From assembly GCF_025398035.1 (NCBI RefSeq), contig NZ_CP104558.1, forward strand, positions 3,544,001 to 3,608,000: a DNA stretch of 64,000 bases, in the 5' to 3' direction. The notes under the pieces are model-generated. The model saw only the letters and a list, made by a program, of their open reading frames with translations, was not told the origin of the DNA and made no database searches. Of the stretch, positions 2,181 to 50,410 are shown one piece after another (the stretch's first letter is position 1; every line of letters begins with the position of its first letter). The translations under genes and the position numbers were made by a program. This DNA is from Rossellomorea vietnamensis. GTDB taxonomy: Bacteria > Bacillota > Bacilli > Bacillales > Bacillaceae_B.

Positions 2181-4637
2181 ATGACGGGAAAAACATTGAA
2201 CATCGAAGGAATGACATGTGCCTCTTGTTCACAGGCTGTTGAGAAAGCAACTAAGAAACTGGCTGGTGTTCAACAAGCAAGCGTAAACCTTGCAACGGAG
2301 AAATTGAATATAACCTATGATGAAAATGAGCTCTCACTTGAAGAAATCAAGCAAGCCGTGGATGACGCAGGTTATAGAGCAGTTACAGAAATGGAGAAAA
2401 AGACATTCAGCGTGACAGGCATGACGTGCGCTTCCTGTGTGCAATCGGTCGAAAAGGCAACAATGAGGCTCGATGGCGTCAAGGATTCGACGGTCAATAT
2501 GGCTACAGAGAAAATGGTCATTGAGTACGATCCCGCCGTCGTTACCGTGTCTGATATCAAGGGAGCGGTATCTGACGCAGGATATGAAGCACATGAGGAC
2601 ACTGATGTCGAACAATCAGTGGACGAAGACCGGGATAAGAAGGAGCAGCACATCAAGACCATGTGGAAACGCTTCTGGGTTTCAGCCGTCTTCACCGTTC
2701 CTTTGCTCCTGGTTTCCATGGGGCATATGTTCGGCATGCCGCTGCCCGATGCGATCGATCCGATGGTGAACCCAACTGGATTTGCATTGATACAACTGGT
2801 TCTTACCATTCCTGTCGTAGCGATGGGGAAACCCTTTTTCACCGTAGGATTTAAGACGCTTTCCAAACGCCATCCGAATATGGATTCATTGGTGGCCCTC
2901 GGAACGGGGGCAGCGTTTTTCTATAGTTTGTTTGCAAGCATCATGATCATAGCAGGAAGTGAACGGTATGCGCAGAACCTTTATTTTGAATCGGCAGCCG
3001 TCATCCTCACCCTCATTACATTGGGTAAATATTTCGAGGCCCTTTCCAAAGGGAAAACGTCTGAAGCCATCAAGAAGCTGATGGGGCTTGCCCCTAAAAC
3101 GGCTACTGTCGTAAGAGATGGAGAAGAAGTAGAAATCTCAGTGGACGAAGTGGCAGTGGGAGAGATCATCATCGTGAAACCCGGTGAGAAGATACCGGTG
3201 GATGGAGTGGTGCTGGAAGGAAAAACATCCGTCGATGAAGCGATGCTGACAGGGGAAAGCATCCCTGTAGAGAAGACCAGTGGCTCAAACGTCATCGGTG
3301 CGAGCATCAACAAAAATGGAACCATCCGATACGAGGCTACGAAAGTCGGAAAAGATACTGCACTTTCCCAGATCATCAAGCTGGTCGAAGATGCCCAGGG
3401 GTCAAAGGCACCAATCGCCAAAATGGCCGATATCATTTCAGGTTATTTTGTTCCGATCGTCATCGTCCTTTCCATCCTATCCGGTCTCGCCTGGTATATA
3501 GCAGGTGAGTCAGGTCTCTTCGCCTTTACGATCACGATTTCGATTCTTGTCATAGCCTGTCCTTGTGCACTGGGACTCGCAACACCTACGGCCATTATGG
3601 TTGGTACGGGGAAAGGCGCGGAAAATGGCGTCCTTATTAAAAGCGGCGGAGCCCTTGAAACGACCCATAAAATAGACACCATCGTGTTCGATAAAACCGG
3701 CACCATCACGGAAGGGAAGCCTGTGGTTACGGATATCGTAACATCAGCATCCATTTCAGAAGAAGAACTCCTGGTACTTGCCGCTTCAGCTGAAAAGGGA
3801 TCTGAACATCCTCTTGGCGAAGCGATTGTCAGAGAGGCGGAAGAAAGAGGGCTCACCTTGCGAAAGACCGACTTCTTTGACGCCATTACGGGACAGGGAA
3901 TTGAAGTGACGGTTGAAGGAGACGATCTCCTGCTCGGAAACCGCAAGCTGATGGACGAAAATGATGTCGATGTCGGTGAACTGGCGGAAGTTTCGGACCG
4001 CTTGGCAGCCGAGGGGAAAACGCCCATGTATATCGCCGTCGAAGAAGAGATTGCGGGCATCATCGCCGTTGCTGATACGGTGAAGGAAACGAGTTTCAAA
4101 GCCATTGAAAAGCTTCACAGGATGGGGCTCCAAGTGGCTATGATCACGGGAGACAATAAGCGCACAGCGGAAGCGATCGCAAGAGAAGTAGGGATCGACC
4201 GCGTACTGAGTGAAGTACTGCCTGAAGACAAAGCAAATGAAGTCAAGAAGCTTCAGGAAGAAGGCAGGAAAGTGGCGATGGTCGGGGATGGAATCAACGA
4301 TGCTCCGGCACTTGCACAAGCGGATATAGGGATCGCCATCGGTTCTGGTACGGATGTAGCCATGGAGTCGGCAGACATCGTCCTTATGAGAAGTGATCTC
4401 ATGGACGTACCAACCGCCGTCGAATTGAGTAAAGCAACCATACGGAACATTAAACAGAACCTTTTCTGGGCCTTTGGCTATAACATCCTCGGCATACCTA
4501 TTGCCATGGGAATCCTGTATTTGTTCGGCGGACCTTTACTGAATCCAATGATCGCTGGTGCAGCCATGAGCTTCAGTTCTGTATCCGTGTTGCTGAACGC
4601 CCTGCGTCTGAAAGGATTCAAACCATCAGAAACGTAG
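2181..4637 (+). CDS. copA: Cu(I)-exporting P1B-type ATPase CopA
   Basis: This 818-residue membrane ATPase exports Cu(I). Two N-terminal HMA domains each carry GMTCASC (about residues 10-16 and 80-86). The actuator motif is TGES, the intramembrane metal site is CPC (about 460-462), the phosphorylated Asp lies in DKTGTIT (about 504), and SEHPLG and [10 protein letters not shown] follow. All signature residues are present. The frame also opens at a GTG at 2169, but AAAGGTGG at 2165-2172 places the ATG at 2181 at normal spacing, so 2181 is chosen. It is the third gene of the CopY-controlled operon. Confidence 0.96.
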
Positions 4638-43121: not shown

Positions 43122-43211
43122 TTTTAGTTGTGCACAATTTAACTTTGCAAAAATAACTATAAAGGATTTTAATTTAGTTGTCAACAATTTAGTTGTGCGC
43201 AATTTAATTTG
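43122..43211. promoter_or_regulatory. OhrR boxes between ohrA and ohrR
   Basis: TTTAGTTGTGCACAATTTAA (about 43123-43142) and a tandem pair reading TTAGTTGTCAACAATTTAG and GTTGTGCGCAATTTAA (about 43170-43206) match the A/T-rich ACAATT-type dyads bound by OhrR. They lie between the divergent genes and could control both. Confidence 0.75.
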
Positions 43212-43275
43212 ATAATTGTTATTCTTTTTTGTATGATAATCACAATTAGTATGTACAAGAAAGGAATCGACATGT

Positions 43276-43704
43276 ATGAAGGATCCACTATTATTGGAAA
43301 ATCAAATCTGCTTTAAAATATATACAGCTGAGAGGGAGATCACGAAGCTTTACCGGAGCCTCCTGGAGGAAATCGGTGTCACGTATCCACAATACCTGGC
43401 TTTGCTCGTGTTATGGGAAGAAAAAACGATATCGGTAAAGGAACTCGGAAGGAAGTTATTCCTCGACTCCGGAACGCTGACCCCCATGTTGAAAAGAATG
43501 GAAGCGAACGGACTGGTGGAGCGGAAGCGTTCGTCAGAGGATGAGAGAAGTGTCATCATCAGTCTTACAGATAAAGGACTGGAAATGAAGGAGAAAGCAG
43601 AATGTGTCCCGACCCGTTTATTGGAGCGTCTTGAGATGGATGGTGACGAGCTTTCGAAGTTGGATCAGACGTTGACGACGATCCTCGATAAACTGCAGGG
43701 ATAA
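43276..43704 (+). CDS. ohrR: OhrR organic peroxide sensor (MarR family)
   Basis: This 142-residue MarR-type repressor has the peroxide-sensing Cys near residue 12 (LENQICFKIYTAERE), LFLDSGTLTPMLKRME and SSEDERSVIISL. These match B. subtilis OhrR closely. Oxidation of the Cys releases the repressor from the boxes upstream of ohrA. It is followed directly by the 21-bp repeat array. Confidence 0.93.
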   Translation: MKDPLLLENQICFKIYTAEREITKLYRSLLEEIGVTYPQYLALLVLWEEKTISVKELGRKLFLDSGTLTPMLKRMEANGLVERKRSSEDERSVIISLTDKGLEMKEKAECVPTRLLERLEMDGDELSKLDQTLTTILDKLQG

Positions 43705-43749
43705 AAATAATTATCATTTCTGGATATATATTGTTATAATTTGGATATT

Positions 43750-43875
43750 GGCTGGTTTTTTTGCCGTTTTGGCTGGATTTTGTCTCATAACGGCCGGATT
43801 CTCCTTGTTTCTGGCTGGATTTTCTCCCATAACGGCTGGATTTCCATCACAAGCGGCTGGATTTTTCCTGTCTGG
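43750..43875 (+). repeat. 21-bp phased repeat array 1 (GGCTGGATT core)
   Basis: Six units start at 43750, 43771, 43792, 43813, 43834 and 43855, exactly 21 bp apart. Each begins GGCTGGATT with small changes (GGCTGGTTT in unit 1, GGCCGGATT in unit 3), and the next 12 bases are variable. The array lies between ohrR and the NERD gene. A second array with the same core and period is at 48169. Confidence 0.95.
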
Positions 43876-43956
43876 ACCGAACCCTCAACAAAAAATGATG
43901 AAAATCATCCCCTGAGACCATCCCAACACCCTACTTATCTTAAAGGAGTGATCTTA

Positions 43957-45015
43957 TTGATCGTAAAAAAGCATGAACCCCCTGGTATCATCGTAAACCT
44001 TGAGGTATTATTACGGCGCTTACCCAAATCCTACAGCGGAAGAAATGAGATTGAGCATCAGTTGGGGAATTTCAAGGCAGGTTACCACGGAGAGCTATCT
44101 TTGGACTATTATTTGAATCGACTCCCAGAAAAAGAATATTTGATTCTCCACGATCTTCGCCTCTTTATTCAATCCGCCTTTTTCCAAATCGATACTTTAA
44201 TCCTTCATAGGAATTTCATTCTCATTTTAGAAGTGAAGAACATCGCAGGAGAAATTTATATTGATACAACCTATAACCAAATGATCCGGAATCTTAATGG
44301 TAAAATAGAGGTATTTCAGGATCCCATACTCCAGTCTCACAGACAAAAAAAGGACCTTGAAAGTTGGCTGGTGGAAAGAAATTACCCGTCCATACCTGTC
44401 GAGAACATTGTAGTCTTTACCAACCCACATTCCCATATAAAAAATTCTTCGCAAGATCATTCCGTTTATCAGAAGGTGATAAGAAGTGCAAAACTCCCTT
44501 TCCAAATTGAAAGCTATTTCCAATCCCATCAAAATCCATCATTATCTCCTCAACAAGTAACCAAATTGACGAAAGCATTTTTGAAGCATCACATACCACA
44601 ATCCTATAACCTCTTGAAACAGTTCAATATCTCACAATCGTTTATTCTTCATGGAGTGTACTGTGTTCAATGTCAGTCCGGATCGATGGAGAGAATAAGT
44701 GGTACATGGAGATGCGGGCGCTGTTTATCCGTTCAAAAGGATGCCCATACTCATGCATTGAGAGATTATGCGTTTCTGATAAATACCTTTATTACGAACA
44801 AGCAAACGAGGGAATTCTTAAAATTGGAGTCCACTTCAACTGCGCGCAAACTCCTGCAAAAATTGGCCCTTCCATCGACGGGATCCACAAGGGACCGGGC
44901 ATACAACTTATCACCACTTATGGCGACTCCTCCTTCTCCCCCCGAAATGCCAGCACTGAAGTCTTCAAAGAAGCGTAATTCCCAATCGCCGCATAACCGT
45001 AAAAAAAGCCCATGA
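43957..45015 (+). CDS. NERD-domain protein with C-terminal zinc-ribbon-like cysteines
   Basis: This 352-residue protein has a nuclease-related (NERD) domain in its first half (GYHGELSLDYYL, then FQIDTLILHRNFILILEVKN), including the EVK nuclease-like site. About residue 240 onward there is a four-Cys ribbon (CVQCQSGSMERISGTWRCGRC, in part). NERD proteins may process DNA or RNA, but roles are unclear. AAGGAG at 43943-43948 fits the TTG at 43957; the frame extends back through the repeat array to 43741 but without a ribosome site. Its 3' end overlaps the convergent gene by 98 bp. Confidence 0.8.
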   Translation: MIVKKHEPPGIIVNLEVLLRRLPKSYSGRNEIEHQLGNFKAGYHGELSLDYYLNRLPEKEYLILHDLRLFIQSAFFQIDTLILHRNFILILEVKNIAGEIYIDTTYNQMIRNLNGKIEVFQDPILQSHRQKKDLESWLVERNYPSIPVENIVVFTNPHSHIKNSSQDHSVYQKVIRSAKLPFQIESYFQSHQNPSLSPQQVTKLTKAFLKHHIPQSYNLLKQFNISQSFILHGVYCVQCQSGSMERISGTWRCGRCLSVQKDAHTHALRDYAFLINTFITNKQTREFLKLESTSTARKLLQKLALPSTGSTRDRAYNLSPLMATPPSPPEMPALKSSKKRNSQSPHNRKKSP

Positions 45016-45205
45016 ATATGCCCGTGACGGGATGCCCCCTGTGGCTGATGAAAATCGAGATGAAAAGCCCGAGCAGGACGGCAATATTCGGTACCAGAAA
45101 AGCACGTGGTTTAAAGAAGACTTTGATAAGCTGGGTTAACAGGATGATGACGGGAATGGCGATGACGGCATCCCAGAAGTTTGTGTGAATCGTTGGGAAA
45201 TCCAT
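44918..45205 (-). CDS. small membrane protein of unknown function
   Basis: This 95-residue protein has two or three predicted helices (AVIAIPVIILLTQLIKVFF, NIAVLLGLFISIFI, GIFMGFFYGYAAIG). I do not recognise the family. Its last 98 bp overlap the 3' end of the NERD gene on the opposite strand, and no terminator separates them, so the transcripts may overlap. Confidence 0.62.
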   Translation of the reverse strand: MDFPTIHTNFWDAVIAIPVIILLTQLIKVFFKPRAFLVPNIAVLLGLFISIFISHRGHPVTGIFMGFFYGYAAIGNYASLKTSVLAFRGEKEESP

Positions 45206-45264
45206 ATAAAGCCTCCAATAAGGGTTTTGTTCATACTATTTCCTTATTGTGTGTGGATTAACAA

Positions 45265-45294
45265 AAAAAGATGACCCCTTAAGAGGGATCATCC
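45265..45294 (-). terminator. terminator overlapping the ywqN stop codon
   Basis: GATGA-CCCCTT pairs with AAGAGGG-TCATC around the stop, followed by TTTTTTT on the minus strand. Confidence 0.8.
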
Positions 45295-45830
45295 ATTTTA
45301 AATCGCGCGTTCCAGCGTTCTGCCTTCTCCAGTGCAGCCGTGTCGTTCACGATCTCACCAGGTTTGACGCCGGCACCGATCAGGTAATCTGTGAATTCCA
45401 TATGGACGAATTCAAAAATGTAATTGAATTGCTGTACAAGGGGAAGTCCTTTTATGTTGGCCGAGCTTCCTCCGGTAATCACCACGTACGCCTTTTTCTT
45501 CGTAAGCTCTTCTTTCAAGTTGAAACGCTCGTCGCGCAAATACTGACTCCAACGGTCGAAGAAGTTCTTCATCGGACCGCTCATTCCATACCAATAGAGA
45601 GGCGTAGCGAATAATAATACGTCATGCTCCTCCATCATCCGGACCAGCTGTTCGTAATCATCATCGACAGGGAGAAATCCTCCTTCAGCGTGACGCAGGT
45701 CTTCAATCGGCTCGATATGCAGATCGGCAAGGGAGACGACGGTATGGTCGGTACCTTCGACGATTTTCTTCGCAAGATATTCGGAGTTCCCGTTTTTTCG
45801 TGTGCTTCCTAAAAGGGCCAGTACTTTCAT
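45279..45830 (-). CDS. ywqN: NADPH-dependent FMN reductase, YwqN-type
   Basis: This 183-residue flavodoxin-fold protein has the FMN-phosphate loop GSTRKNGNSE at the N-terminus and FATPLYWYGMSGPMKNFFDR. It probably reduces FMN or quinones with NADPH. AAAGGAGTG is spaced for the ATG at 45830. In B. subtilis ywqN is paired with the LysR gene ywqM, as here. Confidence 0.86.
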   Translation of the reverse strand: MKVLALLGSTRKNGNSEYLAKKIVEGTDHTVVSLADLHIEPIEDLRHAEGGFLPVDDDYEQLVRMMEEHDVLLFATPLYWYGMSGPMKNFFDRWSQYLRDERFNLKEELTKKKAYVVITGGSSANIKGLPLVQQFNYIFEFVHMEFTDYLIGAGVKPGEIVNDTAALEKAERWNARFKMDDPS

Positions 45831-45978
45831 TGATGAACACTCCTTTATACATTTCATTATATTTGGCTTTAACCGCTAATGGGATTCTGAATGGTTAAGA
45901 GTATACCATTGATGGGGAGATTAAAGTTATCTATAATTATCGATACTAATTATTGTAATAGATGATAGGAGGGGAAAA

Positions 45979-46854
45979 ATGGATCTGAACTATTTTTATA
46001 CATTTAAGGAAGTGGTTAAATGGGGGAGTTACACGAAGACCGGGGAGGAACTCGGATATGCCCAGTCCAGTGTGACGACCCAGATCAAGAAGCTGGAAGA
46101 GCATTATGGGATAAAAATATTCGAACGGGTCGGCGGAAAAATGAGGCTGACGCAGTCAGGAGAAGAGCTTTACTACTACGTGGAAAAAATAGTGTCCCTT
46201 CTGGATGAAGCGGAAGAACGGATCTCCCAGGAAAGCAATCTGCGGGGGACCTTGCGGATCGGGACCGTGGAATCCCTGGCAGCTTATTTCATCACGCCTT
46301 ATATTAAGGAACTAAAAGGGAAGCACCCTGAATTAAAGATCCTCCTTGAATCCGGACTATGTCCGAACTTAAAGGAAGGCATCCTTGAAGGGAAGTATGA
46401 TATCGCTATCCTTCTTGACCGTTTTTCAGAACATCCCGACTTAACGACGATTCCCATCAGGCAGGAGAAATTGGTCATGATTGCGCCACCGGGTCACCGA
46501 TTGCATTCCCTGAAACAAATGAACGTAAGGGAGCTTGAATCGGAAACCCTGATTTTAACAGAGAAAGGTTGTTCGTACCGGGTCTTATTGGAGCAACTTT
46601 TAAAAGAGAACGATGTGCAGGCAAAATCTATCATCTCCTTCAGCAGCTTAGAAGCCATCAAACAGTGTGTAGCCGATGACCTGGGTTTGGCCATCCTGCC
46701 TGAGATAGCCGTGCAAAAGGATATTGAGAGTGGAAAGGTCGTTCAGATTCCATTTGATCATGAAAAAAGCCCTCTTTATACACAGATTATTTATCTAGAA
46801 AAAAAGTGGCTGACGCCTCCACTTACACAATTGATCGGAGCCCTGACTTCATAG
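45979..46854 (+). CDS. ywqM: LysR-family regulator, YwqM-type
   Basis: This 291-residue LysR regulator has an N-terminal HTH (SYTKTGEELGYAQSSVTTQIKKLE) and a C-terminal periplasmic-binding-like effector domain. It is divergent from ywqN and is probably its regulator. A GGAGGGG site precedes the ATG. Confidence 0.88.
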   Translation: MDLNYFYTFKEVVKWGSYTKTGEELGYAQSSVTTQIKKLEEHYGIKIFERVGGKMRLTQSGEELYYYVEKIVSLLDEAEERISQESNLRGTLRIGTVESLAAYFITPYIKELKGKHPELKILLESGLCPNLKEGILEGKYDIAILLDRFSEHPDLTTIPIRQEKLVMIAPPGHRLHSLKQMNVRELESETLILTEKGCSYRVLLEQLLKENDVQAKSIISFSSLEAIKQCVADDLGLAILPEIAVQKDIESGKVVQIPFDHEKSPLYTQIIYLEKKWLTPPLTQLIGALTS

Positions 46855-46955
46855 ATATCAAAATTCTTGATGAATAATATGAAAAACTATCAATAACTTT
46901 ATGGGTCAAAAAGATGGTAAAATGAATGGATAATTCTTACGAAGAGGTGCTGAAT

Positions 46956-48119
46956 ATGAACACTTTTTTACAATACAATCCGACGAAGCTTTACTTCGGT
47001 AAAGATGAAGTGAAGCAGCTGTCTTCCATTTTAGACAAGGGACTGAAGGTCTTACTGGTTTATGGGGGAGGAAGCATCAAGAGAAATGGCGTTTACAATG
47101 ATGTGATGACCGAGTTGGGTAAAATGGATGCCAACGTTTTTGAGTTAAAGGGAGTGGAACCCAATCCCCGACTGACCAATGTCCGTAAAGGTGTCGATAT
47201 CTGCAAAAAAGAAGGAATAGACTTCATCCTGGCAGTAGGCGGTGGAAGTGTGATCGACTGCACAAAAGCGATATCGGCAGGAGCAAAGTACGAGGGGGAC
47301 GTGTGGGAACTGATCACCGCCAAAGCCCCGATCGAGGAAGCACTTCCCTTTGGAACGATCCTGACGTTGGCTGCGACAGGTTCAGAAATGAACTCTGTGT
47401 CTGTGATTACGAACTGGGAAACGAATGATAAATTAGGTTGGGGCTCGCCTCTTGTCTTCCCGACGTTTTCTATACTGGATCCTTCTTACACATTCTCTGT
47501 ACCCCGCGACCAGACAATTTATGGGATCGTCGACAGCATGTCCCATGCTCTTGAACACTATTTCCATCGGACGGAAAATACGCCGATGATTGACGGGTTC
47601 ATTGAATCCCTTTTAAGGACGGCGATTGCAACCGGTCCTAAACTACTGGAGGATCTCGAGTCCTTCGAGCATAGGGAAACGATGATGTATATCAGTACGA
47701 CGGCATTCAATGGATCTCTTGCAAATGGGACCGACGGAGGGGATTGGGCCACCCACCGGATCGAGCATGCCATTTCGGCCATCTACGATATTCCCCATGG
47801 CGGCGGTCTTGCGATACTTTTCCCGAACTGGCTGGAGCATGTACTGGAAGAGGATCCATCCCGGGTCAAACAGCTTGCGGTGAATGTGTTCGGGATCTCG
47901 CCTGAAGGCAAGGAAGATATCGACGTGGCACGTGAAGGGGCGAAAGCTCTGCGCGACTTCTGGAACTCCCTCGGGGCACCTGGCACGCTTGCCGATTATG
48001 ACATTGATGATAGTCAGTTCGATTCCATTGCGGAGAAGACGTTCATCAAGCCTGGCGTAGGTACGTATAAAGAAATGGATCTGGACAGTGTGAGGGATAT
48101 ATTGGCAAGATCTCTTTAG
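46956..48119 (+). CDS. yugJ: iron-containing NAD(P)-dependent alcohol dehydrogenase
   Basis: This 387-residue group III alcohol dehydrogenase has the cofactor motif [12 protein letters not shown] and the metal-site segments [11 protein letters not shown] and [12 protein letters not shown]. It resembles YugJ, a butanol-type dehydrogenase, in length and sequence. AGAGGTG fits the ATG at 46956. It is the gene just upstream of the second repeat array. Confidence 0.9.
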
Positions 48120-48168
48120 ATGATGTGGTTCCCGGGTTTGGTGTGTTTGTTGGGAAAAAAAGTAAAAT

Positions 48169-48303
48169 GGCTGGATTCTGTTCAGGAACGGCTGGATTCT
48201 TGGCCATTCCGGCTGGATTTTCATCAAAAACGGCCGGATTAACGCGCGTTTCGGCTGGATTTTCTCGAAAATCGGCTGGATTCTTGGCGACTCCGGCTTC
48301 GCC
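48169..48303 (+). repeat. 21-bp phased repeat array 2 (GGCTGGATT core)
   Basis: Units start at 48169, 48190, 48211, 48232, 48253 and 48274, plus a partial unit at 48295 (GGCTTC), exactly 21 bp apart. Each begins GGCTGGATT (GGCCGGATT in unit 4), followed by 12 variable bases. It lies in the 3' region of yugJ, before the terminator at 48363. Core, spacing and setting match array 1 at 43750. Confidence 0.95.
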
Positions 48304-48362
48304 CGGACCAGATTCCCCTACACCATGACCAAATCCCCCCATCGCCCACGCTGCCCGAGAAC

Positions 48363-48400
48363 AAAAAAGGACGAATCGACACACCGATTCGTCCTTTTTT
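48363..48400. terminator. bidirectional terminator
   Basis: A 16-bp stem AAAAAAGGACGAATCG and its complement lie between the yugJ side and the convergent gene at 48427. Confidence 0.9.
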
Positions 48401-48426
48401 CATCCTTCTTGCATCCCGAAAACGTA

Positions 48427-48879
48427 TTACCGTCTCCGGAACCCTTCTTCACGCAGATACAACGCTGCTTCATCATACCCGCCGAAGCTGTCCTCAAGAT
48501 TGTCACCGGCGTAGATATTCCAGCGGTCATCTTCTTCAATCAGCATGAGGGAATGTCCTTCTGCGTCTTTCCATAACTGTTCCACGGGAGGCGCAACTTC
48601 TTCTTCCGTTGCCAAGTGATCGATCGACGCACGAATGATTTCGCGCAGTTCATCTGCCGAAAAATCACGGATATTCACAAGGCCTTTTGGATTGGATTCA
48701 TAATCGAGGCTGCCCGTGTAAACAAAGCCGTTTCCGTTCGGGTGCAGGTGATAGACGACGGTCGTTTTTTCATAGAGACTGTCTTCAAAGTGGAAGTTCA
48801 CGCGGTTCAGTGAAACGTCCTTTCGTGTAAGCTCGGGAAATTCTTCTATGAGAGCTAATTTATCTTCAAATGTCAGCAA
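48427..48879 (-). CDS. hypothetical soluble protein
   Basis: This 150-residue, acidic, probably cytoplasmic protein starts [20 protein letters not shown] and has [15 protein letters not shown] and [20 protein letters not shown] near its end. I do not recognise a domain. Its start is a TTG with GAGGA upstream. It has a terminator at its 3' end and is divergent from a DEAD-box helicase gene. Confidence 0.72.
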
Positions 48880-48979
48880 TGTGATTCCTCATTTCATTTT
48901 ACGATTTTCCCATTATACCACAGCGCCCTATTTTCTAAAGAGGATTACGGGTATAATGAGTATCAAAGAGGTGACCCCA

Positions 48980-50410
48980 TTGAATGATTTTACTTCCTTA
49001 GGAATTCAACCTAAGTACGTTAATGCTTTAAAAGAACAATCCATAACAGAACCGACGCCGATTCAGAGCGAAACCATCCCAGTCTTATTGAATGGTGAGG
49101 ACGTGATCGGACAGGCACAGACCGGAACGGGAAAAACGATGGCGTTTCTCCTGCCCATGCTTGCGAAAATCGATCCGGAAAAAGATGAGATCCAGTCCCT
49201 TATTGTGACTCCGACGAGGGAGCTTGCGATTCAGGTAACTGCTGAATTGAATCAAATACTATCTTCTGTCGAAGATGATATACATGTATTAGCTGTGTAC
49301 GGTGGTCAGGATGTGGAGAAACAGATTAAGCGACTGAAGAATAAGGCGATTCATATCGTGATCGGTACACCGGGACGACTCCTTGATCATGTGCGCCGCG
49401 AGACGGTCGATTTTTCAAATGTTAGGTTCCTCGTATTGGATGAAGCGGATCAGATGCTTCATATCGGCTTCTTCGATGAAGTGGAGTCGATCATCCGCGA
49501 GACGCCGTTCACCCGTCAGACCGCCCTGTTTTCAGCAACGATGTCCAAGGATATCCGTAAGATCGGGAAGCGCTATATGAATCAACCTCATAATGTGCAG
49601 ATCCGTGAAAAAGAAAAAATTGTACAGGAAATCCAGCAGGAAATTGTGGAAACGACGGATCGACAGAAGCTGGATGCCCTCAGTCAGACGATCCACGATG
49701 TCCAGCCGTTCCTTGGCATCATTTTCTGCCGGACGAAGAGGAGGGTCAGCAAGCTTCTGGGAGACCTTAAAGCGAGAGGTTTTCTCGTCGATGAACTCCA
49801 CGGTGACTTGTCTCAGGCGAAGCGGGAAAACGTGATGAAGAAGTTCCGGGACGCAAAGCTCCAGCTTCTTATCGCAACGGACGTGGCGGCCAGGGGGCTT
49901 GATGTGGAGGGTGTGACCCATGTGTTCAACTATGATATCCCTCAAGATGTGGAAAGCTATATCCATAGAATCGGGCGTACGGGCCGTGCCGGAAAAGACG
50001 GGCTGGCCATCACCTTTGTTGCACTGAAGGATAAGCAGGATCTGGAAATGATCGAAAAAGGCATCGGACGTTCATTGCCCCGCCGTGTAGTGGAAGTCGT
50101 TTCTACTAAAGAAACCCCCAATCGCACGAAAGGATCCAGTGAAAGTGCAAAGGATCGCCGTGAAAAGAATATACAAGCGAGTAAGGAAAGAAAAGCAAGG
50201 TCACCCCGGGGTGGCAGATCCAGGACGGGTGACAATGATGGTCCGACCCGCAGTCGCAGGTCCAAGAGTGAAGACAAGAATCCCCGCCGCGGTGGTGGTG
50301 AATCATCGGGTAACACCCGCGGTAAGCGAAGTGGCTCGACAGGAAGGAACAACAACGGTAATCAACGAAATAGTGGCAGCAGATCCACTTCGAATCGAAG
50401 AGGGCGCTGA
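48980..50410 (+). CDS. DEAD-box RNA helicase with Arg/Gly-rich tail
   Basis: This 476-residue RNA helicase has all core motifs: AQTGTGKT (Walker A), [19 protein letters not shown] (FSATMSK), ARGLDVEGV and [10 protein letters not shown]. About 90 residues at the end are rich in Arg, Gly, Ser and Asn ([17 protein letters not shown]), typical of RNA-binding tails. A TATAAT at 48952-48957 lies where an ATG-containing extension would begin, so the TTG at 48980 behind AGAGGTG is the likely start. It may act in RNA remodelling in the cold or in ribosome assembly. Confidence 0.86.

Follow-up and report, generated by a model that had tools for sequence, protein, structure and literature searches.

Plasmid iterons are sets of several direct repeats of about 20 bp which lie in helix phase and are bound by a replication protein, and the sites of the Lrp/AsnC family form phased, multi-site regulatory DNA in which the sites are whole helix turns apart and the DNA is wrapped. 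REP/BIME, BOX and bcr-type repeats are dispersed, intergenic and non-coding, in CRISPR arrays a leader precedes evenly spaced repeats separated by unlike spacers, and arrays of terminator-protein sites are found downstream of eukaryotic rRNA genes. The arrays analyzed here, in which a core GGCYGGATT recurs every 21 bp, resemble each of these systems in part. They resemble iterons in having multiple helix-phased direct repeats of about 20 bp, but they occur in about 17 intergenic copies on the chromosome, with no adjacent replicon or Rep gene in the window, and they combine one leader across arrays of different cores with a preference for six copies. With Lrp/AsnC-family sites they share multiple sites at whole helix turns (the wrapping belongs to Lrp/AsnC); in contrast to these, they are not located at one promoter, their core is non-palindromic, and most of them lie past terminators. 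REP/BIME, BOX and bcr-type repeats are likewise dispersed, intergenic and non-coding, and differ in that our arrays are non-palindromic, are built of six phased tandem units and have interchangeable cores. The order of a leader and evenly spaced repeats with unlike spacers recalls CRISPR arrays, yet the cores measure only 9 bp, the 12-bp spacers have conserved ends, and many loci exist with a copy number near six. Finally, repeated sites just past a terminator (putative protein sites in our case) are reminiscent of eukaryotic rRNA genes, although here they are bacterial and present at many loci. Full-text searches of open-licence papers yielded no description of such arrays.

The window, that is, the whole stretch of 64,000 nucleotides under analysis, covers positions 3544001-3608000 of a single-contig genome of 4,519,151 bases. 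A first-pass annotation made from the sequence alone had described array 2 as six full units and one partial unit with a period of exactly 21 bp, and had assigned the same core and period to array 1 at 43750; both descriptions proved accurate, array 2 spanning 48169-48298. Tandem Repeats Finder detects the two arrays, and when the 64-kb window was scanned de novo for lags of 14-49, they alone exceeded the threshold, at lags 21 and 42. As had also been noted, both are located 3' of the stop codon of a plus-strand gene and in one orientation, the distance from stop codon to first core being 45 and 49 bp. The features are as follows.

43728..43749, plus strand: leader of array 1; contains TATAATTTGGATATT, which is also -10-promoter-like
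43750..43863, plus strand: array 1, six cores at a 21-bp period starting at 43750 (GGCTGGTTT), 43771, 43792 (GGCCGGATT), 43813, 43834 and 43855; flanked by a MarR-family gene and a NERD-domain gene
46926..48119, plus strand: iron-containing alcohol dehydrogenase (ADH) gene upstream of array 2 (Pfam PF00465, PF25137)
48147..48168, plus strand: leader (unit 0) of array 2, TTGTTGGGAAAAAAAGTAAAAT, a diverged version of the leader consensus wTTTGGnAAAwAWTGTWAWTC (column statistics, 100 arrays)
48169..48177, plus strand: array 2 core 1, GGCTGGATT
48190..48198, plus strand: array 2 core 2, GGCTGGATT
48211..48219, plus strand: array 2 core 3, GGCTGGATT
48232..48240, plus strand: array 2 core 4, GGCCGGATT
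48253..48261, plus strand: array 2 core 5, GGCTGGATT
48274..48282, plus strand: array 2 core 6, GGCTGGATT
48295..48298, plus strand: array 2 partial seventh core, GGCT
48363..48401, no strand assigned: bidirectional intrinsic terminator after array 2, between the ADH gene and the convergent gene
48427..48879, minus strand: convergent gene of 150 aa, without a Pfam family at E 1e-5

Array 2 precedes the bidirectional terminator and may therefore be part of the ADH 3' UTR. A promoter at the leader of array 1 (TGTTATAAT) is possible only, because the bases of TGTTATAAT belong to the leader common to the arrays. The convergent 150-aa gene (48427-48879) is kept across most of the genus. A second iron-containing alcohol dehydrogenase-like gene of the same genome (L105:1702-2865), whose paralogy rests on a 67% match, also has an array 3' of it.

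The two arrays had been attributed to a repeat family rather than to chance, and the genome-wide searches bear this out. Exact two-core matches occur 41 times in the whole genome compared to 0 for the backwards pattern, and at up to 3 mismatches the numbers are 105 and 5, respectively. These 105 matches group into at least 17 arrays and one two-core remnant; twelve of the 17 arrays consist of six cores, two of five and three of seven. The exact two-core pattern was found in 14 of 61 genomes, all from the same genus (36 genus genomes searched, own included), and in none of 25 genomes that each represented another family. When three cores were required and 3 mismatches allowed, 16 of the 36 genus genomes match, with 0 matches for the reversed control in each, and a class-wide search returned 3 of 398 genomes, own included. 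Among 60 exact three-core loci in named genomes, 33 belong to Rossellomorea or near-relatives named Bacillus sp., seven to Sporolactobacillus vineae (one of them with six cores) and two to Domibacillus, and the remaining 18 resemble unrelated repeats. Further arrays, whose absence had been named as evidence against a family, are thus present both in the genome and in relatives.

From the fetched loci we gathered 100 distinct arrays, 44 of which remained after removal of shared flanks, and 28 of these 44 contain six cores. According to column statistics, the unit consists of the core, a spacer with free positions 13-16, which carry almost zero information, and a spacer end of the form R-W-W-W-Y. 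Position 4 of the core is only C or T (69% T, 30% C; 516 units), so that the change from GGCTGG to GGCCGG reported for array 2 is both genuine and frequent; position 7 is A in 94% of units, and position 21 is nearly always C or T. Positions 18-20 at the spacer end are nearly always all A or all T, and the AAA and TTT ends alternate in a conserved manner, T-type spacers adjoining only 3 times compared to 14.6 expected when types are shuffled within arrays. The leader before the first core carries TTTGG at -20 to -16 and TGTWAW at -8 to -3, and the flanks of the arrays are G/T-rich on the left and C/A-rich on the right. Of 394 core gaps in the 12-30 bp class (85 arrays, orthologues included; cores with at least 8/9 matches in clusters of at least 4), 389 measure 21 bp, two measure 22 bp and none 20 bp; this is the constant whole-turn spacing without indels that a phased protein-binding array requires. 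The core is also the slower part of the unit. Between the own genome and R. vietnamensis orthologues, 16 of 424 core positions (position 4 left out) differ compared to 36 of 184 spacer positions 13-16 (p 1.4e-9; 11 pairs retained from the loci of 13 arrays, with one locus entering twice and units of less than 13/21 identity left out), which corresponds to a divergence about five times lower in the core than in the mid-spacer. Collapses by multiples of 21 bp and 42-bp expansions do occur, as expected of a neutral satellite which arose by local slippage and which nothing maintains. However, this explanation is disfavoured, and we regard it as very improbable, in view of the common core at dispersed loci, the preference for six units, the lack of 1-bp indels and the slow core.

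The first-pass annotation had further proposed a hidden repeat peptide of AGFxxxx or NPAxxxx heptads. The period of 21 bp does equal seven codons, the frequent C/T change of the core is silent in either frame, and 19 of 28 six-core arrays contain no stop in the NPA frame (10 of 28 in the AGF frame). Yet stop codons are not depleted: in 225 distinct units we counted 35 in the AGF frame and 22 in the NPA frame, compared to 34.0 and 21.2 expected by within-column shuffling. One minus-strand frame shows fewer stops than shuffled units (91 vs 103.5, sd 4.6), but it is not open, as 91 of the 225 units still contain a stop. Conservation follows the nucleotide and not the codon, with the core being kept at AGF-synonymous sites such as the A at position 7, and there is no conserved start. 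Moreover, the period is not generally a multiple of three; it is 21 bp here and 20 bp or 20/21 bp in sister families described below, and because families with a 20-bp period exist, no reading frame fits. The peptide was rejected on the stop counts and the 20-bp families, and we consider it hardly credible; these unit statistics show the arrays to be non-coding. Of the earlier interpretation as a whole, the repeat family, the orientation and the placement are retained, and the peptide is not.

With respect to genomic placement, the neighbours of 84 arrays (orthologues included; genes called by a simple longest-ORF rule) are oriented ++ in 56 cases, +- in 13, -- in 12 and -+ in 3. A hairpin followed by a T-run, that is, a same-strand upstream terminator, precedes, as a raw count, 29 of 41 nonredundant arrays; in 28 of these 29 the T-run is located 35-98 bp before the first core. 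Among the 12 arrays without such a terminator, six face a minus-strand terminator on their right-hand side. Both arrays of the window belong to these 12, and array 1 precedes the NERD gene. A Pfam scan covering 29 of 34 flanking proteins of the own genome plus NERD revealed housekeeping functions without a common theme; the gene names murA, yqhY, recJ, fni and gcvPB are presumptive.

The arrays might also be read in terms of RNA. In this case a multimeric RNA-binding protein would bind the array as single-stranded or weakly folded RNA, be it in a read-through transcript, in a 3' UTR or, for array 1, in a 5' leader. In 69 of the 84 arrays, orthologues included, the upstream gene has the same direction as the array, the restriction of position 4 to C or T and of position 21 nearly to C or T is what G-U pairing would permit, GGCY can pair with the GGCY of the neighbouring unit, and the folding z of the array strand averages about -1.2 in 17 arrays (range -2.6 to 1.7; opposite strand -0.7). 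On the other hand, six dispersed copies yield a weak consensus fold on each strand (-10.6, z -2.1; -13.0, z -2.3), mutual information gives no sign of base-pairing covariation apart from the AAA/TTT alternation, cores of the other families lack the self-complementarity of GGCY, the arms match their own partner no better than the partners of other arms, and a spacing of 20-21 nt without one indel is not an obvious demand of an RNA. Taken together, we consider an RNA element unlikely. Hairpins between adjacent cores, attractive by eye, found no support in covariation or consensus folding, and a stem built from the left (G/T-rich) and the right (C/A-rich) flank, although conspicuous in L105, was unspecific over 39 arrays. 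Rfam searches of positions 43200-49000 of the window gave no match above gathering and three sub-threshold matches, none of them on an array.

Genomes lacking GGCYGGATT contain arrays of the same build with other cores, a period of 20-21 bp and mostly five or six units. Upstream of NERD, such an array was found in 4 of 13 genomes without GGCYGGATT, with the core GGCTCGATT (one base changed) in G025, the CRAAGATTA type in G001, TCATAGAWTA in G016 and GCACAAGTTT in G030. In G030 (L166) the site upstream of this nuclease-related gene carries three tandem modules of the different-core array. Genome-wide, the RAAGATTA type gave 80 matches, all from four of the 36 genus genomes (G001 32, G021 16, G024 17, G016 15), and 0 in the other 32, the reversed controls giving 0; the four genomes form one clade in a single-gene tree (450 bp, 28 genomes). 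Twenty of 28 RAAGATTA arrays have six cores. Samples of 400 kb contained 12 other-core matches in G012, three in G030 and one in G027, and no other-core arrays were seen in 400 kb of the own genome. In G012 several core families exist side by side, together with further arrays at lag 41, and four 20-bp arrays have five gaps each and hence six cores; the samples (L239-L258) also show tandem modules of about five units, three at L254:16700-17350 and two at L240:16000-16430. Gap lengths in these other families are again regular, with 20 of 20 gaps at 20 bp in four arrays, 16 of 16 at 21 bp in four arrays, and 9 gaps of 20 bp alternating with 12 of 21 bp in five arrays.

The leader is shared between families. 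A 22-bp profile trained on GGCYGGATT leaders scores a mean of 7.0 before RAAGATTA arrays compared to -1.5 in control windows (p 1.5e-12), although the 28 scores are not all independent because six of the 28 arrays are dispersed copies of one another; in 14 of the 28 the optimum exactly abuts the first unit. Some sites are shared as well. For seven array-flanking genes of the own genome searched in seven genomes, 30 of 45 matches had loci, all of which were examined, and of the 20 GGCYGGATT-array sites that fall in the five other-core genomes, 5 hold a lag-20/21 array (score at least 0.6), namely at eno in G001, G025 and G030 and at murA in G001 and G012. The base rate is 9 of 976 gene-3' windows, taken from G012, G030 and G027 (p 2.6e-5 at the highest genome rate). 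The yqhY sites of G012 (0.54; six cores by eye) and G025 remained below the threshold of 0.6, and an earlier search via protein neighbours had yielded a single usable site, which was empty. Since other-core arrays share the build, the leader and some sites, layout and leader persist while the core differs by clade. Judged by comparison of sequences, the arrays represent a non-coding intergenic DNA element with a leader of about 21 bp, after which come, in most cases, six short cores spaced at two helix turns; its status as a family, the preferred copy number, the exact spacing, the conservation of core over spacer and the leader across core families are established at this level, as are other-core arrays at shared intergenic sites.

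Individual arrays are lost readily. Among 15 orthologous loci of array 2, six units are found in G000, G023, G015 and G031, five in G006, three in G007 and one core in G022; G014 has an expanded array, G020 has lost it, G005, G024, G012, G018 and G035 lack it, and G025 holds a different repeat there. Because array 2 is collapsed or missing in several relatives, single arrays are by this comparison dispensable and none is essential. At five further GGCYGGATT sites G023 was empty in all five, and G022 had a three-core remnant at one. G022 (L113, L361) is nested among array-rich relatives, G023, G020, G003 and G000 being close to it, and contains no three-core match at 3 mismatches, only remnants; such a natural loss should be useful for tracing a partner gene.

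The differences observed between relatives at GGCYGGATT loci are collapses or deletions. In the RAAGATTA family, six loci are homologous from the leader through about 110 bp beyond the array, and whole-element tandem copies of 196-198 bp exist in G024 and G001. Of 12 loci queried in G021, 11 matched and six of these were without the array; at the four of the six that aligned on both flanks, G001 has 322-581 bp where G021 has 17-168 bp. Comparison of L326, L331 and L327 (G001) with L371, L373 and L375 (G021) shows array-bearing insertions of about 500-580 bp within an apparent interspersed repeat, and the G001 insert partly resembles what we take to be a common Bacillaceae interspersed repeat. 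These copies, the tandem duplications and the array-free G021 sites, together with the patchiness of families between species and the ease of loss, would suit a selfish or mobile repeat that spreads parasitically, with cores recognised by a protein that mobilises or replicates it and with a position past terminators that reflects tolerance or targeting. However, the dispersed copies lie within a longer interspersed repeat, so that a carrier may have moved the arrays, which may be its passengers. In addition, most arrays lack common flanking sequence and many are orthologous between species, the core is conserved more than the spacer, and GGCYGGATT arrays have no inverted ends of the REP-like or MITE kind, the flanks of 39 arrays pairing no better with their own partner than with those of others. 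There is also no match to these arrays in 72,556 plasmid records, 50,697 phage records or viral contigs, and phage or plasmid carriage was rejected on this ground. We regard a selfish origin as rather unlikely.

The exact two-turn spacing in unrelated cores and the conservation of the core point to DNA sites read along one helix face, and the failure of the coding and RNA-structure tests argues in the same direction. Our preferred reading, to which we give slightly less than an even chance, is that the arrays are docking arrays for a putative sequence-specific DNA-binding protein, copies of which would be aligned on one face of the DNA. The leader would start or delimit the row of bound protein, and the core would have followed shifts in protein specificity, so that clades differ in core and keep the layout. 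Placement and orientation of the arrays suggest an interaction with read-through transcription. As a guess, the nucleoprotein array, mostly just past terminators, might stop read-through RNA polymerase; alternatively, it might insulate neighbouring transcription units or anchor the chromosome (nucleoid anchor). Several observations count against docking arrays with such a role: single arrays are lost, the window's own arrays have no same-strand terminator, the RAAGATTA family is associated more weakly with terminators (upstream terminator in 13 of 28; neighbours ++ 15, -- 7, +- 4, -+ 2), the flanking genes are of the housekeeping type without a common theme, and the several core families of G012 would need several binding specificities. 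Possible but doubtful is the wider proposal of a genus-wide, and probably wider, site-array system of exchangeable specificity, in which a shared leader would specify a six-site two-turn array and the core, as the target of a fast-evolving DNA-binding protein, would be rewritten across all loci of a clade, in place, at conserved intergenic sites past terminators. If true, this would be a dispersed architectural DNA element of bacteria whose layout is kept while its recognition sequence turns over by clade, similar to fast-evolving site systems known from eukaryotes. It would make the coevolution of a DNA-binding protein with its whole genomic site set directly testable in harmless spore-formers, and it would account for a class of intergenic repeats which gene-finding programs may annotate as small repeat proteins.

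In Domibacillus (L031:6350-6560, L041:1040-1240 and 3740-3890), arrays consist of direct copies of a core followed by inverted ones, whereas all copies are direct in GGCYGGATT arrays. A genome from another family (G096, L217:1410-1660) contains an array of 41-bp period with GAAAATCCGGCC-like units.
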